Assembly: GCF_000381925.1 (NCBI RefSeq)
Contig: NZ_KB907307.1
Coordinates: 1 to 64,000, forward strand
Length of the DNA stretch: 64,000 nt
Reading direction: 5' to 3'
Source of the DNA: Nocardia sp. BMG111209
GTDB lineage: Bacteria; Actinomycetota; Actinomycetes; Mycobacteriales; Mycobacteriaceae
Shown here: piece after piece, positions 28,608 to 64,000 of the stretch
How the letters are laid out: each line of letters begins with the position of its first letter
Position numbering within the stretch: position 1 is the stretch's first letter
Translations under genes and position numbers: made by a program
The notes under the pieces: model-generated
Seen by the model: only the letters and a program-made list of their open reading frames with translations
Databases searched by the model: none
Told to the model about the DNA's origin: nothing

Positions 28608-29429
28608 GTGAAAGATCTCAAGGATCGGACCGTGCTGCTGACCGGTGCTTCCGGTGGCATCGGCAAACAGGTGGCCCGGTTGCTGGCGGCCCAGGGCGCG
28701 CACGTGGCGCTGGTCGGCCGGCAATCGGACATCCTCGGCACACTCGCCGAGGAACTGCGTGGCGCCGGGGTGAAGGCCGAGCCGGTGATCGGCGATCTGG
28801 CCGACCTCGAGTCGCTCGACGATCTGGTCGACCGGGCCGAGCAGGCGCTGGGTCCCATCGACGTACTGATCAACAACGCGGGTGTCGAACTCGCTGCCGC
28901 CTTGACGAGATACGAGCCGGCCGAACTGAATTGGATCCTGAACGTCAATCTGACCGCACCCATGCTGCTGACCCGGCGGGTGCTGCCGGGCATGGCGGAG
29001 CGCGGCCGCGGCCACGTCGTGTTCGTCTCCAGCGGCGCGGCCAAGGTGGCGCCGGCCTATCAGGCGCCGTACGCCGCCACCAAGGCCGGCCTCGCGGCCC
29101 TGTCGCAGTCGCTGCGCGCCGAGTACAGCAACACCCCGCTCGGCTTCTCGGTGGTGCTGCCGGGCTTCGTGAAAGGTGATGGCATGTACCAGGTTTGGGT
29201 CGACAAGGGGGTGAAGGCGAGCCCGATGCTCGGATCCACCACGGTGGACCGGATCGCCGGGAAGATCGTCGGCGCCATCCGCCGCGACAAATCCGAGGTG
29301 CTGGACATGGGAATGCCGGTGCGGTCGATGTTCGCGACCACACAGCTGTCGCCGGGCTTCGCCGATCGGCTGGCCCGGCGCATGTCCCCGGTCTTCCGCA
29401 CTCAGGCGAAGACGCGAGATCGGCTGTAA
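28608..29429 (+). CDS. Short-chain dehydrogenase/reductase
   Basis: The 273-residue protein starts at GTG 28608 after AGGAG. Rossmann motif TGASGGIGKQ (residues 13-22), NNAG in VLINNAGVEL, catalytic Ser in VSSGAAK and Tyr/Lys in YAATK are present. The C-terminal part (ASPMLGSTTVDRIAGKIVGAI) resembles a membrane-tending SDR group. It uses NAD(P)H to reduce or oxidise an alcohol. Two motif classes shared with the PKS operons in its promoter suggest it acts on the cluster product or a precursor. Alternatively it is lipid metabolism unrelated to the cluster. Confidence 0.88.
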   Translation: MKDLKDRTVLLTGASGGIGKQVARLLAAQGAHVALVGRQSDILGTLAEELRGAGVKAEPVIGDLADLESLDDLVDRAEQALGPIDVLINNAGVELAAALTRYEPAELNWILNVNLTAPMLLTRRVLPGMAERGRGHVVFVSSGAAKVAPAYQAPYAATKAGLAALSQSLRAEYSNTPLGFSVVLPGFVKGDGMYQVWVDKGVKASPMLGSTTVDRIAGKIVGAIRRDKSEVLDMGMPVRSMFATTQLSPGFADRLARRMSPVFRTQAKTRDRL

Positions 29430-29436
29430 CACAACA

Positions 29437-30780
29437 CTATCGGCACCGAGATCCTTGGAAGGCGCCGAGATCGACACTGTCGGCCATCGCCTGGTGCCCC
29501 CGCGGATTGGGGTGCACCAGGGTGGGCGACACCAGATCCGGCCGCTGCGCGGCCGGATCTGCCGGGTCGCGCAGCACCGCGTCGAAGTCGATCACGTCGT
29601 CGGCCACGTGTTGCGTGCGAATCCAGGCATTCACCTGTTGCCGGACCGGATCGGAATTCGGTGATATACCGCCGGCGATGAACGACCGGACCGAGGGCGG
29701 AATCGTCGCCAGATGCAATCGGATACCTGCCGCGTGCAGCCGGTTCGCGATATCGGTGTACGCGGCGGCGAGCTGCTCCGGCGTCTGTGTCGGCGGAAAT
29801 GCGAGATCGTTGGTCCCCATCGCGAGAATGACATCGCTGATTCCCGCGGTATCGATCACGTCGCGCTGCAGTCGCGCCAGCGCACCGGGTCCGGTCTGCG
29901 GGATCGTTTCATCGAGGACCACCCGGTTCCCCCAGGTGCTCGAATTCAATACCGAGAGCGGAATTCCGGCAGCGTTCAAACGGCGCTGCAGAAAATCGGT
30001 GTACCGGAGATTGCGGTCCACGATTGCCGGATCCTGCGGTCCCTCGTAATATGTCGCACCCTCGTATCCGGTGCTGATCGAATCGCCCACCGTCACGACG
30101 CTGGAATATTGCGCGGGCGCCAGGACGTCCACGCCGAAGGCGAACAGCACGCTCGTGGTGTTCATGGTCAGCGCGGCCCCGGCCGGGTCGGTGGTCTGAT
30201 CACCGGAGCCGGGCGGCCCGTAGTAGCTGGTCGACAGGCCGACGATGTTCTCGGCCGCCAGGACCGACAGGCCGGGCACGAAGACGCTGACGGAAAGCGG
30301 TGTGAACGCGTCGAAATCGAGATCGATCGGGTCACTGACCAGGTCGGCGTCCGGCGCGGCGGTCACCGACGCCTGTCCGCCGAAGGTGACGTGGCGGAGC
30401 GTGTCGGGCCGCACGGACGACCCCTGATCCTGCTCGGCCAGCGTGACCGCGCCGAAGGTGACCGGCAGCGGATTGTGCCGGTTGGTGAGGTGCAGCCGCA
30501 GCGTCTGCCCGCCGAGGTGCGGCACGACCACGATCCGATATGTCTGGTCGAACAACGACCTGGTGGGGGTGAGGGCCATGTCGGAGACGGGCATGGCGTC
30601 CGACGGTGACATCAGCCAGCTGCCCACCCAGTGCGGACCGCCGCAGCCGCCGTCGGCCGGGTCGGCGTGCGCGGCCGACGCCGTCGCCGTGGCGAGCAGG
30701 CAGGCCAGCGCGAACGCCGGCAGTGCTGCTCGATATTTTTTCGGAATTCCCAGGCCGTGTGGATTTCCGGTGCGTTTCAT
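29437..30780 (-). CDS. Secreted SGNH/GDSL hydrolase
   Basis: The 447-residue protein has an N-terminal signal peptide (basic MKRTGNPHGLGIPKKYR, hydrophobic ALPAFALACLLATATA, cut near AHADPAD at about residue 40). An N-terminal beta-sandwich (about 50-220) precedes the SGNH domain: VTVGDSIST (Ser about 234), ILAMGTNDLAF and LVHPNPRGHQAMAD. It matches exported carbohydrate esterase-type lipases of actinobacteria. It is divergent from PKS1 with only 230 bases between. It ends 7 bases from the SDR stop (convergent), with no hairpin seen between. Confidence 0.85.
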   Translation of the reverse strand: MKRTGNPHGLGIPKKYRAALPAFALACLLATATASAAHADPADGGCGGPHWVGSWLMSPSDAMPVSDMALTPTRSLFDQTYRIVVVPHLGGQTLRLHLTNRHNPLPVTFGAVTLAEQDQGSSVRPDTLRHVTFGGQASVTAAPDADLVSDPIDLDFDAFTPLSVSVFVPGLSVLAAENIVGLSTSYYGPPGSGDQTTDPAGAALTMNTTSVLFAFGVDVLAPAQYSSVVTVGDSISTGYEGATYYEGPQDPAIVDRNLRYTDFLQRRLNAAGIPLSVLNSSTWGNRVVLDETIPQTGPGALARLQRDVIDTAGISDVILAMGTNDLAFPPTQTPEQLAAAYTDIANRLHAAGIRLHLATIPPSVRSFIAGGISPNSDPVRQQVNAWIRTQHVADDVIDFDAVLRDPADPAAQRPDLVSPTLVHPNPRGHQAMADSVDLGAFQGSRCR

Positions 30781-31010: not shown

Positions 31011-34000
31011 ATGGCGACCGAAGAAAAACTGCGCACCTATCTGAAGCGGGCGGCTATCGACCTGCACAAGACCCGGCAGCGTTTGCAGGAACTGGAGTCG
31101 CGGACGGTGGAGCCGATCGCGATCATCGGCATGGCCTGCCGCTTTCCCGGTGGCGTGAGCTCGCCGGAGGAGCTGTGGCGGGTCGTGGCCGACGGCCGCG
31201 ACGTGATCTCGGAGTTCCCCGACGACCGCGGCTGGGATGTTGCCGGGCTGTACCACCCGGATCCCGACCACGAGGGCACCTCCTACGCCCGTGAGGGCGG
31301 ATTCCTGCGTGGCGCAGCCGATTTCGACGCCGCGTTCTTCGGGGTGAGCCCGAAGGAAGCGCTGGCGATGGAACCGCAGCAGCGGCACCTGCTGGAGGTG
31401 TCCTGGGAGGCGCTCGAGCGGGCGAACCTGGACCCGACCACGTTGCGCGGCAGCACGACCGGAGTGTTCACCGGCATCATCGAGGTCCAGTACGGGCCCA
31501 GCATCGCGCAGGACCGCAGCGGTCTCGCGGGGCTGCTGCTGATCGGGCGCACCACGAGCGTCGCGTCCGGCCGGGTGGCCTACGCGCTCGGGCTCGAGGG
31601 TCCCGCGGTGTCCATCGATACCGCGTGTTCGTCGTCGCTGGTGGCGATGCACGACGCGGCGCGTGCGCTGCGCTCCGGCGAGTGCACTCTCGCGCTGGCC
31701 GGCGGCGTGACGGTGATGCCGACGGCGGAGGCGTTCATCGCCTTCTCCCGGCAGCGGGTGATCTCGCCGGACGGGCGGGCCAAGCCGTTCTCCGCCGACG
31801 CCAACGGCACCGCATGGTCCGAGGGTGTCGGAATGCTTGTGCTGGAACGTCTTTCGGATGCCCAGCGGAACGGGCATCGGGTCCTCGCGGTCATCCGCGG
31901 CTCCGCGGTGAATTCGGACGGCGCCTCCAACGGGCTGACCGCGCCCAACGGCCCGTCCCAGCGGCGGGTGATCGAAGCGGCACTCAACAGCGCGAAACTG
32001 ACCACCGCCGATGTCGACGTCGTGGAGGCGCACGGTACCGGCACGCCGCTCGGCGACCCGATCGAGGCGCAGGCCCTGCTGGCCACCTACGGACGTGGCC
32101 GCCGGACGCCGCTGTGGCTCGGCTCGGTGAAATCGAATATGGGCCATACCAGCGCGGCCGCCGGTGTCGCGGGTGTGATCAAGATGGTCATGGCGATGCG
32201 CAACGAGACCGTGCCGCCGACGTTGCACGTGGGAGAGCCGTCCCCGCACGTGGATTGGACCGCGGGCGAGGTCCGGCTGGCCACCGAGGCGCAGGCCTGG
32301 CCCCGTGACGGCCGGCCGCGGCGCGCGGGGGTGTCCGCCTTCGGAATCAGCGGCACCAACGCACACGTGATCCTGGAGCAGTACGAGAAGCCCGCGCCCG
32401 TCGCGGAACCGGCCGACGGCGCGGAGGCCGCCGAGCCCGCGGAAACGACTGCGGTGCAACCGATATCGGTCGAGGAGCCGGCAGTGCCGCCGGTGCTCGG
32501 CTGGGTGCTGTCCGGCGGCACCGGGCCCGCGCGGGACGAGCAGGCGCGGCGGCTGGCGGCATTCGTCGCGGCGCACCCCGAGGCGACCGCGGAGGGCATC
32601 GGGTACGCGCTCGCGGCCGGCCGGGCCCGGCTGACGCACCGCGCGGTCCTGCTCGGTGCGGACCGCGCGGAACTGGTGACCGCGCTGGACGCCCTGAACG
32701 ACTCGCGCACCTCACCGAATGTCGTGGTGGGACAGGCACTTCCCGGCGCGAAGACGGCGTTGCTGTTCCCCGGTCAGGGTGCGCAGCGGGTCGGCATGGG
32801 CCGTGCCCTGTACGACCACTACCCGGTCTACGCGGCCGCCTTCGACGAGATGTGCGCGTACTTCGACGGCCGGTTCGATCCGCCGTTGCGGGAGGTGATC
32901 TTCGCCGAGCCCGACAGCGCCGCCGCGGGCCTGCTCGCGCAGACCTCCTACACCCAGGCCGCGCTGTTCTGTGTCGAGGTCGCGACCTTCCGGTTGTTCG
33001 AATCTTTCGGTGTGCGACCGGATCTGCTGATGGGCCATTCCATCGGTGAGGTGACCGCCGCCCATCTGGCCGGCGTCTGGTCGGCGGAGGACGCGGCGAA
33101 ACTCGTTGCGGCACGGGGCCTGCTGATGCAGGCGCTGCCCGAGGGCGGCGCCATGCTGTCGGTGCCGATGTCCGAGGCGGAGGTGACCCCGATGCTGGCC
33201 GGTCGCTCGGGCCGGATCGCCGTCGCGGCGGTCAACGGCCCCGCGACGGTGGTGGTCTCCGGGGACGAATCCGCGGTCGACGAGGTGGCGGCGGTGGTCG
33301 CCGAGCGCGGGCACACCGCGCGGCGGCTGCGGGTCAGTCATGCGTTCCACTCGCCGCGGATGGATCCGATTCTCGCCGACTTCGCCGGTGTCTGCGCGAG
33401 CCTGACCTATCACCCGCCGACGATTCCGGTGATGTCCAACGTCACCGGCGAACTCGCCGACCCGCAGCAGCTGTGCGATCCGGACTACTGGGTGCGGCAC
33501 GTGCGGGAGCCGGTCCGGTATCTCGCCGGCATCCGAGCGGCCCGGGAGTACGGCGCGACGGTGTTCCTCGAGGCGGGTCCCGGTACGACGCTGACGGCCC
33601 TGACCCGGGACGGCTTGGCCGACGAGGATACCGATCCGCTGACCGCGGCGCCCGCGCTGGACCCCAAACGCGAAGAGGCGCAGTCGTTCCACGCGGCGCT
33701 CGCGGCGGCCTTCGTCGCCGGCACCAACGTCGACTGGGCGGCGGCGCTGGCGGTCGGCCGGTCCCAGCACGTGGATCTGCCCACCTATGCGTTCCAGCGC
33801 AAGCGGTTCTGGCTCGACACACCGGTCGGCACCGGAGATCTCAGCGCCGCCGGGCTCGGCACGCTCGGACATCCGTTGCTGGCGGCCATGATTCCACTGG
33901 CCGCCGACGCCGGAATGGTGGCGACGGGCCGGCTGTCGGTGGCCGCGCAGCCGTGGCTGGCCGATCACGCGATGGCGGGAACCGTGCTGGTGCCCGGGAC

Positions 34001-37000
34001 CGCCTTCATCGAGATGGCATTGCGGGCAGCCGATCTGGTGGGCGCGACAGGGGTGTCGGAACTGGTGTTGCAGGCGCCGCTGGCGCTGACCGGCACCGGG
34101 GTCGATGTTCAGGTGGTCGTCGACGGCGCCGCCGAACCGAGCATCGCGATCTACTCACGGCCGCGCGACACCCCCGGTCCGGACTGGACCTGCCACGCCA
34201 CCGGTGCGCTGTCGGTCGGCGAGATCGACGTGCCCACAAGTGAATTCACCGCCTGGCCGCCGCGCGACGCGGTCGCGGTCGAGGTGGGCGAGGTCTACGA
34301 CCGGCTGTCCGAGGCGGGGTACGGCTACGGCCCGGCCTTCCACGGCCTGACCGCGATGTGGCGGCGCGGCGAGGAGCTGTTCGCCGAAGTGGAACTGCCC
34401 GAGCAGATCCGCGGCGAGGCGGCGGAATTCGGTATCCATCCGGTGCTGCTGGACGCGGCCCTGCACGCGATGGCGGCCGTGGCCGTCACCGGTGAGGAGG
34501 CGGGGCAGCCGGTGCGGCTGCCGTTCGCCTGGGAAGGTGTGTCGCTGCTCGCGGTCGGTGCGACCGCGCTGCGAGTTCATCTGGCGCCCAACGGAACCGA
34601 TCGGCTGTCGGTCACGGTGGCCGACACCGCGGGCAGTGTCGTCGCGGCGGTGTCCGCGCTGACCGTGCGGGCCCTGTCGGCCGACCGGCTCACCTCGGCC
34701 GCCGCGGGCGCCGCGGATCTCTACGCGGTGAACTGGGTGGCGATGCCGCAGAACGCGGCCGAGGGCAGCTGGGAGACCACGGAAACGGCGGCGGCACAGG
34801 CATTCCCGGTGGAGAGCTGGACCGGCGCACAGGGCGCGGCCCTGGTGCTGCGCTGCGAGTCCGGTTCCACCGGCGACACCGCCGGGACCGCGGCCCGCGC
34901 GCTTGCCACCGTGACCGGCGTGCTCGAGCGGGTGCGCGGCCTGTGGGCCGAGGACCGGCGGCCGGCGCCGACGGTCGTGGTGGTGACCAGCGGCGCGGTC
35001 GCCGTCGAGGGTGGCGAGGATGTCACCGACCTGGCCGCGGCCCCGGTCTGGGGCCTGCTGCGCAGTGCCCAGGCCGAGAATCCGGAACGGCTGGTGCTGG
35101 TCGACGTGGACGATCCCGGGGCGTACCGCGCCGCCGTGGCCGCCGCGCTCGCCCTGGACGGGGAGCCGCAGGTCGCGGTCCGGGGTGGCGTCGCGCACGT
35201 GCCGCGGTTCGCGCGGGCCGGAACCGACAGCGTCGGCGGCGCGGAGCTGATCGGCGCCGGCCCCTGGCGACTGGGCTCGCTGGGCAAGGGCACGCTCGAC
35301 GGCGACAACATCGTGCTGCGGGCGGACGAGACCGCCGGGGCCGCACTGGAACCCGGGCAGGTACGGGTCCGGCTGCGGGCCACCGGCATGAACTTCCGCG
35401 ACGTGCTGATCGTGCTGGGCATGTATCCCGATCCGGACGCCCCGATCGGCGGCGAGGGCGCGGGCGTCGTGGTCGACGTGGCCGCCGACGTCACCGAATT
35501 CGCGCCGGGGGACCGGGTGATGGGCCTGTTCGCCGGCATCGGCGATACGGTGGTGTCGGATCGCTCGATGGTGGTGCCGATGCCGGAGGGCTGGACCTTC
35601 GATCAGGCCGCGGCGGTGCCGGCGGTGTTCGCCACCGCGTACTACGCCCTGGTCGATCTGGCCGCGGTGCGCGAGGGTGAGACCCTGTTGATCCACGCCG
35701 CCACCGGCGGTGTCGGTATGGCCGCGACCCAACTGGCCCGGCACCTCGGTCTCGAGGTCTACGCGACGGCCAGCCTGCCGAAGTGGGACACCCTGCGCGG
35801 CATGGGTTTCGACGATCGGCACATCGCCAATTCGCGGACGCTCGATTTCGAGGCGGAGTTCCTGGCGGCGACCGGCGGCCGGGGCGTGGACATCGTGCTC
35901 GACTCGCTGGCCGGCGAATTCGTCGACGCCTCACTGCGTCTGCTGCCGCGCGGCGGCCGGTTCGTCGAGATGGGCCAGACCGATGTCCGTGACCCCGACG
36001 AGGTGGCCACCGACCATCCCGGAGTGACCTACCGCGGCTTCGTGCTGATGGAGGCCGGTCCGCAACGGTTGCACGACATCCTCTCGGAACTGCTGAAGCT
36101 GTTCGAATCCGGTGTGCTGCAGCCGCTTCCGGTGACGCCGTGGGATCTGCGGCGGACGCCGGAGGCGTTCCGGTACCTCAGTCAGGCTCGGCACGTCGGC
36201 AAGAACGTGCTCACCGTGCCGGTCCCGCTGGATCCGGCGGGCACCGTGGTCGTCACCGGCGGCACCGGCGTGCTGGGAGCGGCGGTCGCGCGGCATCTGG
36301 TCCAGGCGCACGGCGCCCGGAATGTGCTGCTGCTCAGCCGTAGTGGCGCCGCGGCCGCGGGTGCGGCCGAACTCGACGCGGAGCTCACCGAACTCGGCGC
36401 GCGGGTGCGGATCGCCGCCTGTGACACCGCCGATGCGCAGGCGCTGCGGACCGTCCTCGCGGCGGTGCCGCCGGAGCATCCACTCACCGCCGTCGTGCAC
36501 GCCGCGGGCGTGATCGACGACGCCCTGTTCACCGATCTCACCACCGAGCAGGTGGCGACGGTGTTCCGGGCCAAGGCGGCCGCGGCCTGGAATCTGCACG
36601 AGGCGACCGCCGGACTGGAACTGTCCGCGTTCGTGCTGTACTCGTCCGTCGCCGGTGTGCTCGGTGGCCCCGGGCAGGCCAACTACGCGGCGGCCAACGT
36701 GTTCCTGGACGCCCTGGCGGCGCACCGGCACCGGCTCGGACTGCCGGCGTCCTCGCTGGCCTGGGGCATCTGGGAACAGGCCAGCGGCATCACCGGACAT
36801 CTGTCGGACCAGGACTTCGCCCGCATGCGGCGCGACGGACTGCTGCCGATCCCGACCGCGGACGGCCTGGCGATGCTGGACGGCGCACTGCGGCTGGGAC
36901 ATTCGCTGACCGTCGCCGCCAAACTGGACGTGCCCGCCATCCAGGCGGCCGGCGCCCAGGACGCGACGCTGCTGCCGCCGGCGCTGCGCGGGCTGCTGCG

Positions 37001-37553
37001 CGGCGTGCGCCGCACGGCCGACAGTTCGGTGGCCGATGCCTCCGCGAAACTCGCGGGGACACTGAGCGGTCGCAGCCGCGGCGATCAGGAAGCGTTGGTA
37101 CTGGCGACGATTCGCAGCCACGCCGCGGCCGTGCTCGGCCACGAGTCGCCGGAGGCGATCGGGCAGGACCAGGCCTTCACCGATCTCGGCTTCGATTCGC
37201 TGGGCGCGGTGGAATTCCGCAACCGCCTGAAGACCGCGACCGGGCTGAAGCTCGCGACCACGGTGGTGTTCGACTATCCGACACCGCTGGCGCTGGCCCG
37301 CTACATCCGCGACGAGATCGCCCCCGCGGTCGATCCCACCGCGGTGATCAAGGCCCAGATCGCCTCGCTCGCCGACAGTTGCGACGAGGCCCAATTGGAT
37401 CCGGATGCGGTGGCGGACATCACGGCCCGCCTGGACGAGTTGCTGCTGCGCCTGCGCGGCGGCGAACTCGACGGGATCCTCGACGATTTGGACACCGCCG
37501 GTGACGACGAACTGTTCGAGTTCATCGACCAGCCGGCTCCGCCGACCGCCTGA
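31011..37553 (+). CDS. Type I polyketide synthase, one module KS-AT-DH-ER-KR-ACP (PKS1)
   Basis: The 2180-residue protein starts at ATG 31011 after GGAG. Domains: N-terminal docking coil ([19 protein letters not shown]); KS about 36-460 (Cys 206 in DTACSSS, His in EAHGTGT and NMGHT); AT about 555-880 (Ser 677 in GHSIGE, malonyl motif HAFH); DH from about 950 ([19 protein letters not shown]); ER about 1430-1740 ([15 protein letters not shown]); KR about 1745-1990 ([29 protein letters not shown]); ACP (Ser in LGFDSLG, about 2063). All active residues look intact, so it is a fully reducing module. The C-terminus ends in a class 1-type docking tail (DDELFEFID), although no matching downstream PKS is in the window and no thioesterase is fused. 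It heads a five-gene operon. Confidence 0.96.
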
Positions 37554-37568: not shown

Positions 37569-38444
37569 ATGGCTCTGAAGTTTTCGGCACTGCTGCGCGG
37601 CGCGCTGGCGGTGGCCGCGTTGACCGCGGCCACGGTGCCACCGCTCGCGGCGGCCGACGCCGACACCATGACGCCCGAGGTGGTTCCCGTCTCGGACCGG
37701 CAGTGCTCGGCCGGCGAGCGCGCGGCGAGCCTGGTCGCCGATCGGCAACGGGTACTGGACCGGCTCGGGCATCTGCGGGTGCTCAACGGTCCCGACGACG
37801 TGATGCAACTGGCGGCGCTCGGCGCGTGGGGCCCGGATTCGCACGGCTGGGTGCAGTATCACGACGTCGGGGTCGGCCTGCTGAATCTGCCACGCTCCCT
37901 GGACATCATCGCCCGCGGGATCGACGGCGTCACGGCCGGGACGACCGCTCGCGACTCGGTGGTCAGCGGGGAGCCCACCGGCCTGTTCTACCGGTCGCTG
38001 GCGCCGAATCCGGTCTACGACGACGCCTACACACCCTCGTTCCCCTACGAGCTCGTCGGCTGGTTCTACGGCGCCGTCTACACCCCCGGGATCACGCCGA
38101 TCGAGAACGGGCTGTGCGTGTATCCCACCGACTGGGGTTTCCACGAGCGCGGCGTGCACGCCTTCCCGAATTTCGACATGGTGATGCAGCCGCCGGATGA
38201 GCCGTGGATGGGGCAGAACCCCGGCACGATTCCGCTGGCGCTGCCGAATCCCCCCGGCCTGGTGCATCCGCGGGCCTGGGATCTGCACATCTGGCTGGTG
38301 CCCGGCAGCGACACCCCGATCACCGGCGGTCTCGACACCGCGCAGGAGATCGCGGGTCACGACGGCGGTATCCCCGAGTCGTTCCCGTATCCGCAGGGAC
38401 CGACGGCGGTGGGGCCGGATCTGCCCGAGCACCACGGACATTGA
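37569..38444 (+). CDS. Secreted protein of unknown function in the PKS operon
   Basis: The 291-residue protein starts at ATG 37569, 15 bases after PKS1. An N-terminal signal peptide (LLRGALAVAALTAATVPPLA, cut near ADA about residue 30) is followed by a soluble domain rich in Trp, Tyr, Pro and Gly (HGWVQYHDVGVGLLNLPRS, YELVGWFYGAVY, PTDWGFHERGVHAFPNFDM, WDLHIWLVPG). Two Cys (DRQC, NGLC) could form a disulfide after export. The tail ends EHHGH. I do not recognise the family. The position inside the operon suggests work on the exported product or protection outside the cell. Confidence 0.75.
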   Translation: MALKFSALLRGALAVAALTAATVPPLAAADADTMTPEVVPVSDRQCSAGERAASLVADRQRVLDRLGHLRVLNGPDDVMQLAALGAWGPDSHGWVQYHDVGVGLLNLPRSLDIIARGIDGVTAGTTARDSVVSGEPTGLFYRSLAPNPVYDDAYTPSFPYELVGWFYGAVYTPGITPIENGLCVYPTDWGFHERGVHAFPNFDMVMQPPDEPWMGQNPGTIPLALPNPPGLVHPRAWDLHIWLVPGSDTPITGGLDTAQEIAGHDGGIPESFPYPQGPTAVGPDLPEHHGH

Positions 38445-38457: not shown

Positions 38458-40218
38458 ATGACGAGCGAAACGGCAATCGAGACGACGGTACTGATCGTCG
38501 GCGCGGGGGTCGGCGGGCTGACCGCGTCGATCTTCCTGTCCAACCTGGGGGTCGATCATCTGCTGGTCGAGCAGCGGCCGGAACCGGCGCGACTTCCCAA
38601 GGCGCACTACATGAATCACCGGACGATGGAGATCTTCCGGCAGCACGGGATCGCCGGGGACTTCGAATCGGCGGGGGCGCCGCTGGACAAGTTCGGCAAG
38701 GTCTGCTGGCAGACCACCCTGGCCGGCAAGGGCCCGTTCGACGGCCGGGTGATCTACGAGATGGACGCCTTCGGCGGCGGCGACCTGCGGGAGTACTGGT
38801 CGGCCGCGAGTCCGGTCGCGGCGACGAATCTGCCGCAGATCCGCTCGGAACCGTTGCTGCGCAGCGCCGCCGAGCGGCGGGCCCCCGGACGGGTCCGGTA
38901 CGGGCACGAATTGATCGACTGGACCGAGCAGCCGGATCGGCTGGTCGCGACGGTGCGCGACACGGCGGGTGAAACCCACACGGTGGCGGCGAAATACCTG
39001 ATCGCCGCCGACGGCGGCCGGACCGTCGGCCCGCGGCTGGGCGTGCGGTTCGACGGCTGGCCGAGGTTCCACCACGTCACCACGGTGCATTTCAGCGCGG
39101 ATCTGTCCCGCTGGCAGCGCGACGGGGCGCTGCTGACCTACTTCGTGAATCCCAAGCAGCCGTCGTTGTCCGGGGCGACGCTGGTAGAAATGGGGCCCAC
39201 CTGGGGATGTTTCAGCGAGGAGTGGGGCCTGCACTTCACCACCGGCCCGGACGATCCGGCCCGCTCCGATCGCGAGGCGGTCCTGGCCCGCATCCGAGAC
39301 ACCCTCGGCATCGGGCAACAGCGGTTGCGGCTGCACAAGGTCAGCAACTGGACGGTCGACGCGGTCAACGCCCAGAGTTACCGCAGCGGAAGGGTTTTCC
39401 TCGCCGGGGACGCCGCGCACAAGCTGCCCCCGGCGGCCGGGCTGGGCCTCAACACGGCCGTACAGGACGTGCACAACCTGGCCTGGAAGATCGCCGCGGT
39501 GGAACGGGGGCACGCGGGTCCGGATCTGCTGGACACCTACGAACCCGAGCGCCGGCCCATCGGGCGCCGCAATCTGGACTGGGCCGTGGGCATCATCGCG
39601 AATTCGGAACTGGTCAGCGAGGCGGCGCTCGGGCTGGGCCCGCACGTGCCGGAGTGGATGCGGCCCACCTTCTTCAACACCTACTTCGAGGACTCGGCGC
39701 GGGGCCGGACCGCCCGGGCCCGCGCCGCCGAGGTCTTCCGCACCCATCGGATCGACTGCCAGGCACTGGATATCGAACTCGGCGCGGTCTACGAACAGGG
39801 CGCGCTGATCCCGGACGGCACACCCGCCCCGGCGACCGAACCGATGGGGGACAAGTTCTTTCCCGTCACCCGCCCCGGGCATCGGCTGCCGCACGCCTGG
39901 ATCGACCGCGACGGAACCCGCGAATCGACGCACGATTTCGTCGCGATCGACGGATACACGCTCATCACCGGGTCGGCCGGGCAGCCGTGGCGCGAGGCCG
40001 CGCGGCGGTTGCGCGAACGCACCGGAATACCACTGGAATCGGTCGTTCTCCCGGCCGGCGCCGACACCACCGGCGCCTGGGACCGATTGCGCGGCATCGG
40101 CGACGACGGCGCCCTGCTGGTCCGGCCCGATCACTACGTCGCCTGGCGCCGCACCGACGCGGTCGCCGATCCCGAGGCCGACCTGGCCCGGGTGATCCAA
40201 CGAATCACTCTCCGCTGA
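38458..40218 (+). CDS. FAD-dependent aromatic hydroxylase (PHBH/TfdB-like)
   Basis: The 586-residue start is ATG 38458, 13 bases after the secreted-protein gene; the open frame to 38197 overlaps that gene. FAD motif GAGVGGL (14-20), a DG-type motif near AADGGRTVGPRLG and the GDAAHKLPPAAGLGLN motif (about 317) are present. The C-terminal 150 residues form the thioredoxin-like domain of the phenol/2,4-dichlorophenol hydroxylase group. It would hydroxylate an aromatic ring with NAD(P)H and oxygen. An aromatic starter unit in this cluster fits such an enzyme. Confidence 0.88.
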   Translation: MTSETAIETTVLIVGAGVGGLTASIFLSNLGVDHLLVEQRPEPARLPKAHYMNHRTMEIFRQHGIAGDFESAGAPLDKFGKVCWQTTLAGKGPFDGRVIYEMDAFGGGDLREYWSAASPVAATNLPQIRSEPLLRSAAERRAPGRVRYGHELIDWTEQPDRLVATVRDTAGETHTVAAKYLIAADGGRTVGPRLGVRFDGWPRFHHVTTVHFSADLSRWQRDGALLTYFVNPKQPSLSGATLVEMGPTWGCFSEEWGLHFTTGPDDPARSDREAVLARIRDTLGIGQQRLRLHKVSNWTVDAVNAQSYRSGRVFLAGDAAHKLPPAAGLGLNTAVQDVHNLAWKIAAVERGHAGPDLLDTYEPERRPIGRRNLDWAVGIIANSELVSEAALGLGPHVPEWMRPTFFNTYFEDSARGRTARARAAEVFRTHRIDCQALDIELGAVYEQGALIPDGTPAPATEPMGDKFFPVTRPGHRLPHAWIDRDGTRESTHDFVAIDGYTLITGSAGQPWREAARRLRERTGIPLESVVLPAGADTTGAWDRLRGIGDDGALLVRPDHYVAWRRTDAVADPEADLARVIQRITLR

Positions 40219-42903: not shown

Positions 42904-42908
42904 ACAAA

Positions 42909-43160: not shown

Positions 43161-43166
43161 CTTCGG

Positions 43167-50871: not shown

Positions 50872-56234
<5,363 letters not shown>

Positions 56235-56250
56235 GATTCTCCTCCGCGGC

Positions 56251-58422
56251 TCAGGCCGGTCCGAGCTCGGCATCGAGCAGGGCGAACAGATCTCGATCGG
56301 TGGGGGCGCCGGCGGCCGCCGGCACCAGGGGTTCCTCGTCGGCGGCGAGGCGATTGAGCGCGCCACGCAACCGGATACGCAGTTCCGCGCGGACGGCGGG
56401 ATCCGCCGGTGCGTCGCGGACCGCGCGTTCGAATTCGGTCAGCCGGTCCAGTACCACCGGCCGGGCGTTGCCGGCGACGACCCGGGCGGTCAGGTGCCGG
56501 ACCAGCGCGTCGACGCTGTCGTGATCGAACAGCGTGGTGCTGGGCAGCCGCAGCCGCAACGTGTCGCCGAGGCGGCGGGCGAGTTCGACCGCCGCCAGCG
56601 AGCTCAATCCGATGTCCTGCAACCGATCCCCGGGCTCGACGACCGCGCGCGCACCACGGATGGTCCGCCCGATCGCGTCGGCCACCGCGTCGAAGACGAG
56701 GCGGTACTGCTCGTCGGGCGGCAGCGCCGCGAGCGTGTGCAGCCAGGCGGCCGGCGGATCCGCCACCGGCGCCGAGGCCACCGGGACGTTCGTCGCGGGT
56801 GCGGGTGCGGGTGCGGCGGCCACGGTGAAGACGCTCTCGTCCCCGTTCGCGAGAGCGGCGCGGATGACCGGCTTGTCGAGCTTGCCCATCGCGTTGCGCG
56901 GAACCCGTTCGGCCTGCACCACCCGGGTCGGCAGCTTGTAGCGGGCCAGCTCCGATTCGGCGAACCGGCGCAACTCGGCGAGGCCGGGCCTGGCCCGCGG
57001 ACCGGCCGGACCCGATGCGGCGCGTCCGGTGACGATCGCGACCACGCTCTCGCCCTCGTGCTCGTCCGCGATCCCGACCACCGCGACGTCCTCGACATCC
57101 GGGTGGCGGGCCAGCACCTGTTCGACCTCGGCGGAGTACACGTTGTCGCCGCCGACGATGATCATGTCCTTGCGGCGGTCGACGAGATACAGATAGCCGT
57201 CGGGATCCAGATAACCGATGTCACCGGTGCGGAACCAGCCGCCCGCGAACACCTCGGCGGTGGCCTCGGGCTGGTTGCGGTAGCCGCGGGCCACCGTCGG
57301 CGCGCGCAGGCAGACCTCGCCGCGCTCGCCCGGCGGCAGCGAGGCGGCGCCCGGGAGTTCGCCGGCGGGATCGATGACCCGTATTTCGGTGTAGGGCAAC
57401 GCGAGTCCCACCGAGCCCGGATGGGTGGCGATCCGGTCGGCGGGCAGGTACGCCGCGAACAGCGTCTCGGTCAGACCGTAGGCCTGTTGCAACGCGATGC
57501 CCCGCTCGCGGTAGCGCTCGATCAGCGGAGCGGGGGCGGGGGCCCCGGCGGTGACGGCGGTGCGCAGCGCGGACAGGTCCGCGTCGGCGAACCCGTCGTG
57601 GGCGGCGACCGCGGCGAACATCGCCGGTACCGCGAATACCGTTGTCACTCCGTAGGTTTCGAGGTCGGCGAGCATGTTCCCGGCCTCGAAGGCGCGGCGC
57701 AGCACGACCGTGCCGCCGCGCATCAGAGTGCGCAGCGCGAAGCAGCCCAGGGGTGCGGTGTGGAACAGCGGCGCCACCACCAGCGTGACGTCCAGCGGAG
57801 CGGCGGTGGCGACCATGTCCTGATTGACGCCGTTCCACCAGAGATTGCCGTATGTCAGTTCGACGCCCTTGGGGCGGCCGGTGGTGCCGGATGTGTAGGC
57901 CAGCATGGCGATTCGGCCGGGCTCGCAGTGCACCGGAGCGGGGGCCGCGGCGATCTCGGTCGCCGGCAACGTCTCCCACGGTGACGGGGGCGCCTCGCCG
58001 GGTGTCGCGGCCGGGTCGCCGGGGACCGTGAGCAACCGAGCCGGGCCGGGCGAGGCGGCCTCCGCAACCGGACGATACTCCGGTTCGGTGACGAGTGTGT
58101 GTGGCGCGCAATCGGACAGGACGATGGCGACCTCCGGCGCGGTCAGCCGCGAGTTGACCGGTACGAACACCGCGCCGAGCCGCGCGGCCGCGAGGAAGGT
58201 GGTCAGGAAGGTGACGCTGTTGCCGCCCAGGTACACCACCCGATCGCCTTCGCCGGTGCCACCCGCGGCGAGTGCGGCGGCCAGTCGCCGGGCCTGGTCG
58301 GCCAGTGCGGCATAGCCGTAGGTGCTGCCCTCGTAGACCAGCGCGACGCGGCGGCCGGTCTGCCGTGCCAGCCTGTCGATGTGGGCGGCGGGACTGAGTT
58401 CTGTCGTCGTCGGCACGATCAC
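56251..58422 (-). CDS. AMP-dependent acyl ligase fused to ACP: PKS loading protein
   Basis: The 723-residue protein starts at ATG 58422, 26 bases after MqnA. The adenylating domain (about 1-530) has [12 protein letters not shown] (about 175), [23 protein letters not shown] and the catalytic Lys in [10 protein letters not shown] (about 514). A linker rich in Ala/Pro follows, then an ACP with Ser about 606 in [12 protein letters not shown], with GLSS in place of GxDS. The end [18 protein letters not shown] is a docking tail. It activates a free carboxylic acid and loads it on its own ACP. The gene order right after MqnA suggests an aromatic acid as starter. Confidence 0.92.
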
Positions 58423-58448: not shown

Positions 58449-59330
58449 TTAGGCCGAGTCCAGCAGTGTCGCAGGCACTTTCACGCCGAAGCCGGTGCGC
58501 GCGGCGAATTCGGCGATGCCCTGCCGCTGGCGCGGGCCGAGCCGGAAGTCCAGCGCTTCGGTGTAGTACCGGTGCAGGGTGTCGGCGTCGAACTGTTCCC
58601 AGCGCGCGGTGCGCTCGCACAGCTCGTCCATCTCGGCGATGGCCCGATCGCGGGCGTCGAGCAGCGCGGAGTGCACCTGCCGCACCGTCTCCGGCTCCTG
58701 TTCGAGGAATGCGCGCCGGGCGGCGACCACGGCGAACACGAACGGCAGTCCGGTCCAGTCCCGCCACATCTGTCCGAGATCGTGGACCACCAGCCCGCGC
58801 GTCGGCGCGTAGTACAGGGCGGTGCGCAGCGCGACGTCGCCGATCAGCACCGCCGCGGGCGCCTGCGCGAACATGACGTCGAGATTCGGTGGGCTGACGA
58901 AGAATCGGGGCCGCACGCCGATGTGCTCGGCCAGCAGCAGCTGGGCCAGCCGGACCGAGGTGCGGCTGGTGGAACTCAGCGCGACCGGCACCCCGTCGAG
59001 CCGGTCCAGCGGCACCCGGCTGACGATCAGGCAGGACATCACCGGCCCGTCGCAGCCGATGGCGAGATCCGGTAGCATCACCAGATCATCTGCGTGCGTG
59101 AGAAATTCGACGAGACTGATCGGCCCGACATCGAGCGCGCCGGCGGCCAGTTCGGCGCTGAGGCGCTCCGGACTGCCGCGGACCAGATCCAGTTCGACGA
59201 GGCTGCCGGAGCGGGCCAGCCCCCACAGGATCGGTAACCAGTTGAGGAATTCGATGTGGCCGACCCGGGGCCGCCGGCGAAGGGGAGTGCGGCGTCCGGT
59301 CTGGACGTCGGGACCGGAAACTGAACGCAT
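58449..59330 (-). CDS. MqnA-like chorismate dehydratase
   Basis: The 293-residue protein starts at ATG 59330. After about 22 basic residues the MqnA fold begins: RVGHIEFLNWLPI, DLVRGSPERLSAELAAGALDVGPISLVEFL, then PVALSSTSRTSVRLAQLLL, AAVLIGDVALRTA and DLGQMWRDWTGLPFVFAVV, all typical of MqnA/MqnD-type proteins. MqnA removes water from chorismate to give 3-[(1-carboxyvinyl)oxy]benzoate in the futalosine pathway. No mqnB, C, D or E is in the window, and Nocardia relatives generally use the classical men pathway. Here it heads the PKS operon, which points to starter-unit supply. The TTAGGGG repeat lies 31 bases before the start. Confidence 0.88.
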   Translation of the reverse strand: MRSVSGPDVQTGRRTPLRRRPRVGHIEFLNWLPILWGLARSGSLVELDLVRGSPERLSAELAAGALDVGPISLVEFLTHADDLVMLPDLAIGCDGPVMSCLIVSRVPLDRLDGVPVALSSTSRTSVRLAQLLLAEHIGVRPRFFVSPPNLDVMFAQAPAAVLIGDVALRTALYYAPTRGLVVHDLGQMWRDWTGLPFVFAVVAARRAFLEQEPETVRQVHSALLDARDRAIAEMDELCERTARWEQFDADTLHRYYTEALDFRLGPRQRQGIAEFAARTGFGVKVPATLLDSA

Positions 59331-59430: not shown

Positions 59431-60066
59431 CTAGGTGGTCAACGGAATTCGGTCGGGCTGAACGGCGTGTGCCCGCAGTGTGCGCCGCATCGCGGCATGG
59501 GCCCGCTCGAACACCTCGTTGTCGCCGAGGAGGGTTCGGTCGGTGGCGGCGCTGCGCTCGAAGGCCGACAGCTCGAATGCCAGCTGCGCCGGATCGGTGT
59601 CGGCGCGGATCTCGCCGAGCTGCTGGGCCTCGACGATGGTCTGCCGATGGAAGTCGTGCCACTGCCGCCAGACGGAGACGATCGCGTCCCGGACCCGTCC
59701 GGGCCGGGACCCGTACTCGGCGCCGACGGACAGGAAGAAGCAGGCCCCCCCGGCGACGGCGTCCTTGCTGGTGTGCTCCAGCCAGGCCTCGCACAGTGTC
59801 TGCAACCGGCCGATGCCCGACGGCTGTCGCAGGGCCGGGCCGATGACCTCGGTGATGAAACTGGCCTTGGCCTCCTCGATCGCGGCCAGTTGCAGTTCTT
59901 CCTTGGATCCGAACAGGCCGAACACCCCGCTCTTGCTGGCGCCGAGGGCGGTGGCGAGCCGGCCGATCGTGAGTCGATCCAAACCTTCCGCCGTGCCGAC
60001 CTGAACCGCCTCGCGCAGAATGGCGCGCCGGGTATCCTGCCCACGCATGGGCCGTGTCTCGGTCAT
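59431..60066 (-). CDS. TetR-family regulator of the export gene
   Basis: The 211-residue protein starts at ATG 60066 with AAGGAG eight bases before it; ATG 60048 is an alternative. The HTH is clear (RRAILREAVQVGTAEGLDRLTIGRLA, LGASKSGVFGLFGSKEELQL), and the C-terminal domain (ACFFLSVGAEYGSRPGRVRDA) matches the TetR_C_6-like group. It is divergent from the MFS gene. GAACG-type sites lie in its own promoter and in front of the MFS gene, and similar sites lie before the SDR. Confidence 0.88.
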   Translation of the reverse strand: MTETRPMRGQDTRRAILREAVQVGTAEGLDRLTIGRLATALGASKSGVFGLFGSKEELQLAAIEEAKASFITEVIGPALRQPSGIGRLQTLCEAWLEHTSKDAVAGGACFFLSVGAEYGSRPGRVRDAIVSVWRQWHDFHRQTIVEAQQLGEIRADTDPAQLAFELSAFERSAATDRTLLGDNEVFERAHAAMRRTLRAHAVQPDRIPLTT

Positions 60067-60348: not shown

Positions 60349-61797
60349 ATGACTGACAGCGTTGCGAACGAACTACCCGCCGCGGTCGAGCCGCGGCGGG
60401 TACTGCTCATCACTTCGGTGGCCACCTTCGTGGCCTTCCTCGACATGTCCGTGGTCAACGTGGCGTTCACGGACATCACCCAGAGTTTCCCGGGTACCAA
60501 GTTGTCCACGTTGTCGTGGGTGGTGTCCGGTTACGCCGTGTTCTTCGCGGCGGTGCTGACCCCGGTCGGCCGGTATGCCGACGTCTTCGGGCGCAAGGCG
60601 GTGTTCGTCTGGTCGCTGCTGGGCTTCACCGTGGCCTCCGCGCTGTGCACCATCGCGCCCAATATCGAGTTCCTGATCGGTGCGCGCGCCTTACAGGGTG
60701 TCGCGGCCGGCGGCATGATCCCCGCCGCGCTGGGCCTGGTGCTCGGCTCGTACCCCGTCGAGCGCCGGGTGGCCGCGGTGGCGGCCTGGGCGGCGGCCTC
60801 CTCCGCGGCCGCCGCCTTCGGGCCCGCGCTCGGTGGCGTGCTGGTCTGGGCCTGGGATTGGCGTGCGGTATTCCTGATCAACGTGCCGGTGGGCCTGCTG
60901 GCCTTCGTGGCGGGTCTGTCGTGGCTGCCGGAGATCCGGCCCAGCCTGCGGGTCCGGCCCGATCCGCTCGGTGCCGTACTGGTCGGCATCGGTGTCGGCG
61001 CCGTCGTCATCGGGCTGACCCAGGGTGGCGAATGGGGCTGGGGCAGTGTGGCATTCCTCGGCACCACCATCGGCGGCCTGGTGTTGCTGGTTCTCGGCAT
61101 CCTCCGCTCGGTGCAGCATCCGGTGCCGGTGTTCGAGGTGAAGCTCTGGGCCGACCGCAAATTCGCGGCCGCCAGTGCCGTCTCGTTCCTGTTCGGCATC
61201 GCGATGTTCGCCTGGCTGCTGGCCTGCCCGCTGTGGACCATCGTGGTCTGGAAGTACTCGGTATGGGAAGCGGGCCTTGCGAATTCGCCAGGCGCCTTCA
61301 CGGCCGCGATCGGCGCCGGCATCGTCGGGCGGTCGAAGCATCCGGACATCCAGCGGATCGCGACCATCGCCGGCGCGGTGCTGTTCGGCATCTCCGCGGT
61401 GTTGTTCGCCGTCCTGCTGCACGAGCAGTCCCGCTTCCTGGCGGTGTGGTTGCCGGTCGGCCTGCTGTCCGGCCTGGCGATCGGACTGCTGATGACGGCG
61501 GTGTCCTCAGCGGCGGCAACCTCGTTGCCGCAGGCCAACTTCGCGTCCGGATACGGCATGAGCATGACGGCCCGGCAGATGGGCGGTGGCCTCGGTATCG
61601 CGGCCTTCGCGGCGATCACCGTCTCGGTGACGACCGGCTGGCTGGACGGCTTGCACGCGGTGTTCTGGTTCGCCGCGGCGGCCATGGTGCCGGTGATCGT
61701 GGCGGCGCTGCCGATGACCGGCGGACCGGACCCGGCGGCCGACACCCCGGCCGGCGAGGCCGGAGCACAGAACCCGTTGTCCGACAGCGTCATGTGA
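60349..61797 (+). CDS. DHA2-type MFS drug exporter
   Basis: The 482-residue membrane protein begins at ATG 60349. The first helix has FVAFLDMSVVNVAFTDI, motif A-like GRYADVFGRKAVF, RALQGVAAGGMIPAALGLV and a later helix with GMSMTARQMGGGLGIAAFAA, as in EmrB/QacA-like transporters. About 12-14 helices are present. It exports with proton influx. Divergence from TetR with a strong operator suggests induction by its substrate, possibly the cluster product. Confidence 0.9.
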   Translation: MTDSVANELPAAVEPRRVLLITSVATFVAFLDMSVVNVAFTDITQSFPGTKLSTLSWVVSGYAVFFAAVLTPVGRYADVFGRKAVFVWSLLGFTVASALCTIAPNIEFLIGARALQGVAAGGMIPAALGLVLGSYPVERRVAAVAAWAAASSAAAAFGPALGGVLVWAWDWRAVFLINVPVGLLAFVAGLSWLPEIRPSLRVRPDPLGAVLVGIGVGAVVIGLTQGGEWGWGSVAFLGTTIGGLVLLVLGILRSVQHPVPVFEVKLWADRKFAAASAVSFLFGIAMFAWLLACPLWTIVVWKYSVWEAGLANSPGAFTAAIGAGIVGRSKHPDIQRIATIAGAVLFGISAVLFAVLLHEQSRFLAVWLPVGLLSGLAIGLLMTAVSSAAATSLPQANFASGYGMSMTARQMGGGLGIAAFAAITVSVTTGWLDGLHAVFWFAAAAMVPVIVAALPMTGGPDPAADTPAGEAGAQNPLSDSVM

Positions 61798-61838: not shown

Positions 61839-62234
61839 CCCCCGGTCTCGATCTTCTCGACCGGAAAGCTCGTGTGACGTCCGTGTGACGTCGGAAAATT
61901 TCATATGTTGGACCTCCAGGCGTATCGGCGAAACCGGTACGCCCGGATGTCGTTCGCGGTCACCGCAATTCCTGGATGCACAATTCGGAAAAATTACGGA
62001 CTTCCGCCCGGGTCTTGTTTCGGCTGAACCGATCGATGATATGTCACGACCATGTTTCGCCGGATCTGCCGCGTTCGGTCCGGGTGGATTTTTGCAGGCT
62101 GCCCCGTCGCTTCCGTAAACGCATCGTCCGGTTTGTGCGATTAGTATCTGCAAGCGGCGGACGACGAAGTCGCCCTTAGGTATCCGATGCCGGCCGCGTC
62201 AGTTGGCCGGTCGGCTGTGTACGGGGCGGGGGTT
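61839..62234. other. Long intergenic region before the LAL-like regulator
   Basis: About 400 bases with locally lower GC (GAAAATTTCATATG near 61894, AATTCGGAAAAATTACGG near 61982), which suits a promoter and long leader for the regulator gene. No gene of its own was supported. Confidence 0.45.
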
Positions 62235-64000
62235 ATGCCCATGGAACCTGTTGGACAAAATTCGGATTCGGATCGGAGGCCGGAACATACCGGTGGTACG
62301 GTCGGTGTTCCACAACGAGCGTGGTCGCAAACGTCGGCCCTCCTGTATTTACGTAGCGGTGGCGCGGCCCGGATGCGGGTCGCACAATTGCTGGCCGTGC
62401 TCGACGCACCCACATCGCTGTGGATCCTGGCCCGAATACTGGATGCGGACCGCGCGGCGGTGCGGGCGATCATCGGCGAACTCACCGCATCGAAATTGGT
62501 CGCCTACAGCCAGTTCCGGCATCGTGACATCCGGGACGCGGTGCTGCGCGAGATGCCGATCGCGCTGCGGCGGCGGCTGCACCAGCGCAGTGCCGAGGTG
62601 TTGTACGACTGTTCGGCGCCGGCCACCCAGGTTGCCGACCATCTGATCGGCGGTGCGGAGGTCCGGGTGTCGTGGGCGGTGTCGGTACTGCGCAACGCGG
62701 CGCGGCACGCGATCGCCGACGACGACACCGCCAGTGCCATCGAATATCTCGAACTGGCCTGCCGGGTGGCCGACAACGACGCCGATCGCGGCGTGATGCT
62801 GGTGCACCTGGCGGTGATCCGCTGGCGGCTGAGCCCGTCGACGTCGACGCGCAGCTTCGCCCGCCTGGTGACGATGGTGCACAGCGGTGCGATGCCCGCC
62901 TCGGGATTGGCCATGACGGCGCGCTATCTGCTGTACTCCGGTCGCGTGGAGGACGCGACCCGGGCCGTGCAGCTGCTCGACGACGCCGCGCTCACCACCG
63001 AGCCACTGGCCATGGTCAATCGGGCCACGCTGCATCAGTGGCTGCGCTGGTTCTATCCCGGCCTGGCCCCCGCGACCACCACCGAGCCGGACATCCGGAC
63101 CGGTTCCGCCGATCAGGATCGGATGCTGCGCCGATGCGGCTGGTACGAGTCCGACACGGCCGTGATGGGACTGCTGTCGGACGTGTTCACCCACGGCGCG
63201 TGCGACCATGCCATCGCGCGGTCCCAGCGGTTGCTGCGGGCGCACCGGCTCGACGACACCACGGTGTGCGCGTTGCTGACCGCACTGGATGTACTGGTGT
63301 ACGCCGACCGGCTGGAATCGGCTGCGTCGTGGTGCGATTCGCTCATGCTCGAGGCCAGTGCCCGGCAGGCCCCGGCCTGGCAGGCGATCTTCGGGATCTG
63401 GCGATCGGCGATGTATCTGCGCTCCGGCGCGGTCGAGGACGCCATCGGGCACGCGGTCACCGCCCTGAGCCGGGTGCGTGGCGACAGCCTGGGCACGTAC
63501 GGCGGGCTGGCGATGGCCTGCCTGATCGAGTCGGCGACCACCGCGGGCAGGCTGCGGGAGGCGGCCACCTATCTGGAAACCGAAGTGCCCGAGACCGTTC
63601 GGGTGTCCCGGGTCGGTCTGCATCACCTGCGCGCGCGTGGCCGGTATCGGCTGGCGGTCGGCGACCTCGACGGCGCCCGTGCGGATTTCCTGACCTGTGG
63701 CGAGCGGATGCGTGACTGGCACATGGACATTCCCGGCCTGATCGCCTGGCGCAACGACCTGGCCGAGGTCGACCTGGCCGCCGGCGACCTGTCCGGCGCT
63801 CGGCACTGGGCCGCCGAGCACCTGTCGTGGATCCGCAGTGCCGCAAAACATTCCAGCGGAGGGGTGTCGTTGCGGCTGATCGCGGCCACCAGTTCGCCCG
63901 CGCAACGGGTCGCACTGCTGCGAAAGTCGGTGCACATCGCGGCATCCGGTGCTCAGCTACTCGAAACCGCCACGGCCCTGGCCGATCTGGCGGACGCCTA
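62235..64000 (+). CDS. LAL/LuxR-like transcriptional regulator lacking the ATPase domain (partial, runs off the window)
   Basis: The frame stays open from 62187 to the window end; ATG 62235 (MPMEPVG) is chosen because GGCGGGGG lies just upstream, with ATG 62241 and 62187 as alternatives. The 588 visible residues start directly with a winged-helix segment (LWILARILDADRAAVRAII, then FRHRDIRDAVLREMPIALRR), the part that in MalT/LAL regulators follows the NACHT ATPase. TPR-like helical repeats follow (IEYLELACRVADNDADRGVM, LEDAT-like units). No Walker A is present. The C-terminal LuxR HTH, if any, lies beyond the window. Likely a pathway regulator of the cluster. Confidence 0.7.
   Translation, partial: MPMEPVGQNSDSDRRPEHTGGTVGVPQRAWSQTSALLYLRSGGAARMRVAQLLAVLDAPTSLWILARILDADRAAVRAIIGELTASKLVAYSQFRHRDIRDAVLREMPIALRRRLHQRSAEVLYDCSAPATQVADHLIGGAEVRVSWAVSVLRNAARHAIADDDTASAIEYLELACRVADNDADRGVMLVHLAVIRWRLSPSTSTRSFARLVTMVHSGAMPASGLAMTARYLLYSGRVEDATRAVQLLDDAALTTEPLAMVNRATLHQWLRWFYPGLAPATTTEPDIRTGSADQDRMLRRCGWYESDTAVMGLLSDVFTHGACDHAIARSQRLLRAHRLDDTTVCALLTALDVLVYADRLESAASWCDSLMLEASARQAPAWQAIFGIWRSAMYLRSGAVEDAIGHAVTALSRVRGDSLGTYGGLAMACLIESATTAGRLREAATYLETEVPETVRVSRVGLHHLRARGRYRLAVGDLDGARADFLTCGERMRDWHMDIPGLIAWRNDLAEVDLAAGDLSGARHWAAEHLSWIRSAAKHSSGGVSLRLIAATSSPAQRVALLRKSVHIAASGAQLLETATALADLADA

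Follow-up and report, generated by a model that had tools for sequence, protein, structure and literature searches.

The first 64 kb of contig 1 of Nocardia sp. BMG111209 (genome 9.14 Mb), referred to below as the window, carry a type I polyketide synthase (PKS) cluster at about 29.4-64.4 kb, which comprises two convergent operons together with flanking regulator and transporter genes. The minus-strand genes are, in this order, a TetR regulator gene, mqnA, which encodes a homologue of chorismate dehydratase, a gene for an AMP-ligase fused to an acyl carrier protein (ligase-ACP), PKS1, PKS2 and a flavoprotein gene. PKS3 lies on the plus strand and is followed there by the genes of a protein that is probably secreted, of an aromatic hydroxylase, of a halogenase and of a CPA2 antiporter, and then by those of an MFS exporter, a LuxR-type regulator and a stand-alone thioesterase, so that the right end of the cluster lies beyond the window (Table 1). 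We consider it probable that this cluster makes a reduced polyketide with an aryl starter derived from the MqnA reaction. A chance grouping of the two operons is excluded, because in another Nocardia genome (G019) both halves form a single run on one strand, in the order PKS3, secreted protein, aromatic hydroxylase, halogenase, CPA2 antiporter, MqnA, ligase-ACP, PKS1, PKS2. Pfam and profile scans recovered, with coordinates, all genes that had been named in the original prediction, a first reading of the same DNA; the core flavoprotein gene had been missed there.

The mqnA gene and its genomic context

The best matches of the MqnA-like protein in the PDB are structures of Streptomyces coelicolor SCO4506/MqnA (2nxo, 7ahr), and residues 18-287 of its 293 align with 7ahr at E 1.4e-104. 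Three deposited variants of the S. coelicolor enzyme (7an7, 7an8, 7an9) are changed at one Asn, one Ser and one Tyr, positions which were read from alignments with the N. aurantia protein and which we took as active-site targets. At each of these positions the window protein has the residue of the wild type (N30, S99, Y255), and these residues are invariant in the 14 proteins aligned. The protein, previously called MqnA-like, can accordingly be described as a close homologue of a solved chorismate dehydratase in which the three active-site residues that were checked appear intact.

The family PF02621 includes MqnD as well as MqnA. The window genome contains exactly one match to this family, the mqnA of the cluster, and therefore no MqnD. 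A search of the same genome for MqnE with TIGR03700 gave no match over the cut-off (best 282.7 versus 434.55 bits); the matches below the cut-off, two of which lie in very long open reading frames, are presumably FbiC-like. MenD is over the cut-off. Within the genus, PF02621 is over the cut-off in 14 of 150 genomes with one copy each, and a second match is absent from the other 13 of these as well; matches of any strength, likewise single, occur in 16 of the 150, and the two additional genomes (G072 and G126), with a weak match below the cut-off, were set aside. A sample of the family contains a gene of this type in 4 of 401 genomes at E 1e-20, all of them from this genus (one of 31 genera), and a sample of the order yielded matches in 109 of 397 genomes, the window genome included, the others at no more than 62% identity. 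Because it is the sole member of its family in the genome, mqnA is not a likely futalosine-pathway gene; it looks like an orphan that is unlikely to serve menaquinone formation (no search was made for MqnB or MqnC).

A futalosine-type route to a menaquinone or naphthoquinone moiety, next to which the PKS genes would lie incidentally, is known as a proposal from the PM100117 cluster. In that report gonM1-gonM4 are named as chorismate dehydratase, dehypoxanthine futalosine cyclase, aminofutalosine synthase and 1,4-dihydroxy-6-naphthoate synthase, within a macrolide PKS cluster (PMC4763440), and the relatives of the window MqnA outside Nocardia include a protein of Streptomyces caniferus (P0070, 69%). 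For the Nocardia gene, however, such a route is contradicted by the single PF02621 match, and hence the missing MqnD, in the window genome and in the other 13, and it is likewise disfavoured by the MqnE and MenD results; we regard it as highly improbable. Some Streptomyces copies of mqnA (L010, L011, L014) also have thioesterase or PKS genes in their vicinity; two of them, L010 and L011, fall together with P0070 and probably belong to clusters of the PM100117 type.

The closest named relatives of the window MqnA come from N. aurantia RB56 (94%), Nocardia sp. alder85J (92%), N. transvalensis (77%) and N. wallacei (74%). In a tree of 38 chosen rows, ten from Nocardia, with MqnAs of the window type, group in one clade with a support of 99/99. 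The forms from G017/G085 and from G115/G024 fall outside this clade on long branches, the latter pair in particular, and their placing is unsure. The association of mqnA with PKS genes may be old, or it may have arisen more than once.

Gene content was compared on fetched stretches of 15-80 kb per genome, and absences given below are absences from these stretches, except that the halogenase was sought in the whole genomes of N. salmonicida and N. aurea. PKS genes stand beside mqnA in 12 of the 14 loci (window included), and in 11 of the 14 a ligase-ACP gene is directly next to it. In two genomes, G017 and G085, mqnA is followed by a gene whose product combines ligase, ACP and KS in a single protein (L030 10113-13565; L032 6825-9956), a fusion which is direct evidence, at the sequence level, that this type of ligase feeds a PKS. 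The hypothesis that MqnA may provide the starter is well supported by this genome context, because mqnA is an orphan, the ligase-ACP gene is its direct neighbour in most loci, and fusions of ligase, ACP and KS exist. A search for relatives of the ligase in 200 genomes of the order (query P0161, E 1e-150) matched the window genome only, and the linkage of the ligase outside Nocardia is therefore unproven; contigs of equal length for P0029 and P0154, and for P0091 and P0161, give no more than a hint of it.

Proposed route from starter to polyketide chain

All three PKS proteins contain KS, AT and ACP domains with their catalytic motifs, and the motifs of the DH, ER and KR domains are likewise present. 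The HAFH motif, which is of the malonyl type, occurs in each of the three ATs and is consistent with the earlier proposal that all extender units come from malonyl-CoA. PKS1 and PKS2 do not have the glycine that is often seen in the DH motif, which we have not taken as a sign of inactivity.

From these genes we infer the substrates, the order of steps and the product as follows. MqnA would convert chorismate by dehydration to 3-[(1-carboxyvinyl)oxy]benzoate, and the ligase-ACP would adenylate the ring carboxylate of this compound, or of 3-hydroxybenzoate after loss of the enolpyruvyl group, and load it onto its own ACP. PKS1 would add a malonyl unit and leave an alkene, and PKS2 and PKS3 would add fully reduced units, so that the minimal product would be at least aryl-CH=CH-(CH2)4-CO-. 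Ring or chain may then be decorated by the core flavoprotein and the aromatic hydroxylase, and in this sub-lineage also by the halogenase. LuxR and TetR presumably regulate the pathway, and the MFS and CPA2 proteins may serve export or ion balance.

At which point the enolpyruvyl group would be lost bears on the tailoring steps. The nearest PDB entries of the aromatic hydroxylase are 2,4-dichlorophenol 6-monooxygenase and 2-hydroxybiphenyl 3-monooxygenase. These enzymes act on free phenols, which favours loss of the enolpyruvyl group before hydroxylation. It is also conceivable that the intact 3-[(1-carboxyvinyl)oxy]benzoyl group primes the PKS, and that the enolpyruvyl ether is kept through extension and only then removed or rearranged by the FAD_oxidored flavoprotein or the probably secreted protein. 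To our knowledge, enolpyruvyl aryl ethers occur only among intermediates of the shikimate type and of the futalosine pathway. We regard this variant as unlikely.

The substrate of the ligase was approached through its relatives. The two best solved ones, near-identical in the aligned part, are deposited as a fatty-acyl-CoA synthase (8weu) and a feruloyl-CoA synthetase (8wev). Two groups of proteins were compared: 27 ligase-ACP or ligase-ACP-KS proteins chosen among the best hits, the gene context of five of which was seen (P0140, P0141, P0142, P0170, P0192), and 75 acyl-CoA synthetases of less than 580 amino acids taken from later hits. At sites 223, 226 and 315 (P0002 numbering; two fewer in P0140), which we take to lie near the acyl pocket of such enzymes, all 27 proteins of the first group carry A, G and Y, whereas all 75 of the second carry G, N and W; according to the alignment, 8wev and 8weu share A, G and Y. 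These sites lean towards an aromatic acid as the substrate, short of proof.

Several observations weigh against the proposed pathway. The best NCBIfam model of the ligase is a generic long-chain-fatty-acid ligase subfamily, with a score below the cut-off (429.4 versus 476 bits); its neighbours with a source name are mostly called fatty-acyl-CoA synthase or acyl-CoA synthetase, and one of the solved relatives that share A, G and Y is itself deposited as a fatty-acyl-CoA synthase. The release step is unassigned, and PKS3 retains a docking-like tail at its C-terminus. Moreover, at two of the 14 mqnA loci, those of G024 and G129, the 20 kb fetched contain no PKS, the match in G129 being partial, and in the assembly of N. 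aurea SYSU K10002 the flavoprotein gene follows directly after mqnA, with ligase and PKS1 missing (L009 10891-14280). The gap in N. aurea is either a real deletion or an assembly collapse; another record of this species encodes a ligase of the same type (P0150). The partial mqnA-like match in G129 (L036, about 9866-10339) lies about 2 kb from a transposase fragment gene and is possibly a decaying copy.

The ligase matches raise the possibility that the ligase-ACP loads a fatty acid or another non-aromatic acid and that the MqnA product has a different use, such as that of a building block joined by an ester or amide bond. The original prediction had held that a best alignment with fatty-acyl ligases would speak against an aromatic starter, and here the outcome is mixed: the best model is of the fatty-acid type, yet below its cut-off, and the closest solved proteins are the pair 8weu and 8wev. 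A non-aromatic starter would leave unexplained why, in 11 of 14 genomes, the ligase gene comes immediately after mqnA, even where the ligase is of the divergent fused form, why the ligase shares three subgroup-specific residues with a solved feruloyl-CoA synthetase and not with the acyl-CoA synthetases compared, and why an aromatic hydroxylase accompanies 11 of the 12 PKS-linked clusters. We therefore judge a non-aromatic starter to be quite unlikely and retain the aryl starter.

The length of the chain can be discussed separately from its starter. Judged by eye, PKS1 and PKS3 share one docking type at the N-terminus and PKS2 has another; PKS2 and PKS3 end in a similar acidic tail, which in PKS3 closes with DDELFEFID. 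Common docking rules fit the order ligase-PKS1-PKS2-PKS3 and leave the tail of PKS3 without a partner. According to Pfam, none of the three PKS proteins contains a thioesterase (TE) domain, and the stand-alone thioesterase is encoded at the right end of the cluster. The three-unit chain of the original prediction agrees with our data in its reduction levels, one alkene and two saturated units. Its total length is tentative, because PKS3 keeps its docking-like tail and no module has a TE domain; the number of modules varies between related clusters as well. In the stretches seen, G017 and G085 have one PKS3-like module besides the fused KS, and G115 has two modules, one of them near a contig end.

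A longer or iterative assembly line, in which the docking partner of PKS3 is PKS3 itself, PKS1 or an unlinked PKS, would be compatible with the aryl starter and would yield a longer omega-aryl alkyl chain. PKS3 would be equipped for it by its N-terminal docking domain (PF08990) and by a C-terminal tail like that of PKS2, and the lack of TE domains and the different module numbers of related clusters point in the same direction. On the other hand, the flanking genes that were scanned include no further PKS gene (the search did not extend to unlinked PKS genes elsewhere in the genome), and a short chain could be released by the stand-alone thioesterase. We hold such an extended line to be less likely than not.

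Tailoring genes and surroundings of the cluster

The aromatic hydroxylase gene was not seen in the 27 kb fetched from G115, the exception among the 12 PKS-linked clusters. Flavin-dependent halogenases are recognised by the motifs GxGxxG, WxWxIP and FxxPxxSxG, which read GGGPAG, WMWGIP and FTDPVFSGG in the window protein. These three signatures and the relation to the solved CmlS (3i3l) bear out the predicted halogenase. Relatives at 82-94% identity occur in six of the 11 other PKS-linked genomes, or seven of 12 with the window, and searches of the whole genomes of N. salmonicida and N. aurea found nothing better than 29-32% identity. The antiporter gene is present in six of the seven clusters with a halogenase (the exception being N. 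wallacei, whose contig stops next to the halogenase gene) and in none of the five without. Halogenase and antiporter thus seem to travel together, and both are optional parts of this type of cluster.

The 1.5 kb between the two operons code for the minus-strand flavoprotein gene. Compared with N. aurantia and alder85J, substitutions pile up at one codon position (e.g. 27, 1 and 1 in one 200-base bin, alder85J). This pattern and the Pfam match rule out that 42904-44442 is non-coding or holds a plus-strand open reading frame of 519 amino acids, a frame with no Pfam match. Relatives of the flavoprotein at 65-92% are found in nine of the 11 other PKS-linked genomes, and in the remaining two, N. 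wallacei and G019, the fetched stretches end short of the spot. No close solved relative was found, the PDB matches being limited to the end that binds flavin adenine dinucleotide (FAD), and no curated family is over the cut-off among the 25 listed. The idea that the flavoprotein replaces the halogenase in other clusters was rejected, since the gene is also present in the window.

The probably secreted protein is encoded in 11 of the 12 PKS-linked clusters and has at least seven homologues, of which the four with a named source are all from Nocardia. The homologue search scored 7996 candidates only and missed relatives at 41-43% in G017 and G085, and the family is therefore wider than the homologues listed. 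Several His, Trp and Asp are among the residues that are invariant in 11 aligned proteins. Its AlphaFold model is of low confidence, with a mean predicted local distance difference test (pLDDT) score of 58.4, and gave no useful Foldseek or VIA match, and nothing follows from it.

A GDSL hydrolase gene lies divergent from PKS3 and is also found inside the cluster in N. salmonicida (L046) and N. aurea (L047). Of the 11 other PKS-linked genomes, four were found to have the gene of the short-chain dehydrogenase that lies beyond it here; the N. wallacei contig stops next to the GDSL gene, with the corresponding spot out of view. To the left of the cluster stand ordinary chromosomal genes: CTP synthase, NUDIX, integrase, cytidylate kinase, Der-type GTPase and a pyridoxal-phosphate enzyme. 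The Pfam scan of the flanks covered ten window proteins, of which nine are encoded in the left 28 kb, and the gene calling, based on the GC content of third codon positions, dropped some genes.

Table 1. Features of the cluster and its borders, in window positions unless stated otherwise.
Feature	Position	Strand	Evidence
MqnA-like protein, chorismate dehydratase homologue (proposed starter-forming enzyme)	58449..59330	-	PF02621, E 1.4e-68
AMP-ligase-ACP loader, C-terminal docking-like tail	56251..58422	-	PF00501, PF13193, PF00550
PKS1, KS-AT-DH-KR-ACP (predicted alkene-forming)	50868..56234	-	Pfam, motifs; open reading frame 50868-56366, likely start 56234
PKS2, KS-AT-DH-ER-KR-ACP (predicted fully reducing)	44443..50871	-	Pfam, motifs
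FAD_oxidored flavoprotein, 416 aa	43167..44417	-	PF12831, E 1.3e-86; codon-position substitution pattern
PKS3, KS-AT-DH-ER-KR-ACP, N-terminal docking domain, C-terminal docking-like tail	31011..37553	+	Pfam including PF08990, motifs
Probably secreted protein, function unknown	37569..38444	+	N-terminal hydrophobic stretch by eye; no Pfam match
Flavin aromatic hydroxylase	38458..40218	+	FAD_binding_3 and Rng_hyd_C
Flavin-dependent halogenase, CmlS/PltA-like	40240..41514	+	PF04820; CmlS 3i3l, E 7e-52; motifs
CPA2 cation/proton antiporter	41530..42903	+	PF00999
SGNH/GDSL hydrolase, probably secreted	29437..30780	-	PF13472; nearest PDB entries are SGNH hydrolases
Short-chain dehydrogenase	28608..29429	+	PF00106
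TetR regulator	59431..60066	-	PF00440, PF16925
MFS exporter (EmrB type)	60349..61797	+	PF07690; TIGR00711 above cut-off
LuxR-type regulator	62187..64000 in window, continues to 64361	+	GerE Pfam
Stand-alone thioesterase	64358-65125 of contig 1		Thioesterase Pfam

Relation to known systems

In the PM100117/PM100118 (gon) cluster of S. caniferus, mqnA and futalosine genes are proposed to make a naphthoate (PMC4763440). The Nocardia cluster resembles it in the presence of an MqnA homologue inside a type I PKS cluster, and AMP-ligase and ACP parts are there likewise proposed to load an aromatic acid (PMC4763440). In contrast, the gon enzyme is proposed to act together with MqnC, MqnD and an MqnE-like protein, whereas the Nocardia mqnA stands alone and its proposed starter is monocyclic. 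The PM100117 cluster is the nearest precedent that we found.

A second parallel comes from the bacterial order to which Nocardia itself belongs. The p-hydroxyphenylalkanoate start of mycobacterial phenolic glycolipids is formed by a chorismate lyase, the ligase-ACP FadD22 and Pks15/1, and a reducing PKS extends 4-hydroxybenzoate. Compared by description only, the two systems share a hydroxybenzoate derived from chorismate, a ligase-ACP loader and a reducing PKS; the mycobacterial one belongs to the para- and not to the meta-series, uses chorismate lyase in the place of MqnA and is not known to include a halogenase.

Chorismatases yield 3-hydroxybenzoate directly, in contrast to the Nocardia MqnA, the product of which would still bear the enolpyruvyl ether. 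Systems with chorismatases and a 3-hydroxybenzoate primer have been described for the unantimycins (PMC7170507) and the cuevaenes (PMC3999817), and they likewise start from a meta-substituted benzoate that originates from chorismate. The venemycin synthase VemG/VemH is likewise a short type I PKS that receives a hydroxybenzoate from an adenylation domain, and 3-hydroxybenzoic acid is accepted at half rate; this system differs in its natural starter, 3,5-dihydroxybenzoate, in its cyclising TE and in its pyrone product (PMC6941969). The original prediction had recognised no described compound with this gene set, and we likewise found no such compound or cluster in the open-licence literature, with no matching cluster in the accessible part of a work on Nocardia (PMC7413640).

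If the proposed pathway is correct, an enzyme of menaquinone biosynthesis would have been freed from its pathway and would alone supply the starter of a PKS. This would represent a further way from chorismate to meta-substituted benzoates besides the chorismatases, and the combination of an mqnA gene with an adjacent ligase-ACP gene, where the genome lacks mqnD, would offer a handle for genome mining. The cluster draws attention to two core proteins without an assigned role, the flavoprotein and the probably secreted protein of no recognised family, and it points to a possible halogenated product to be sought in Nocardia.

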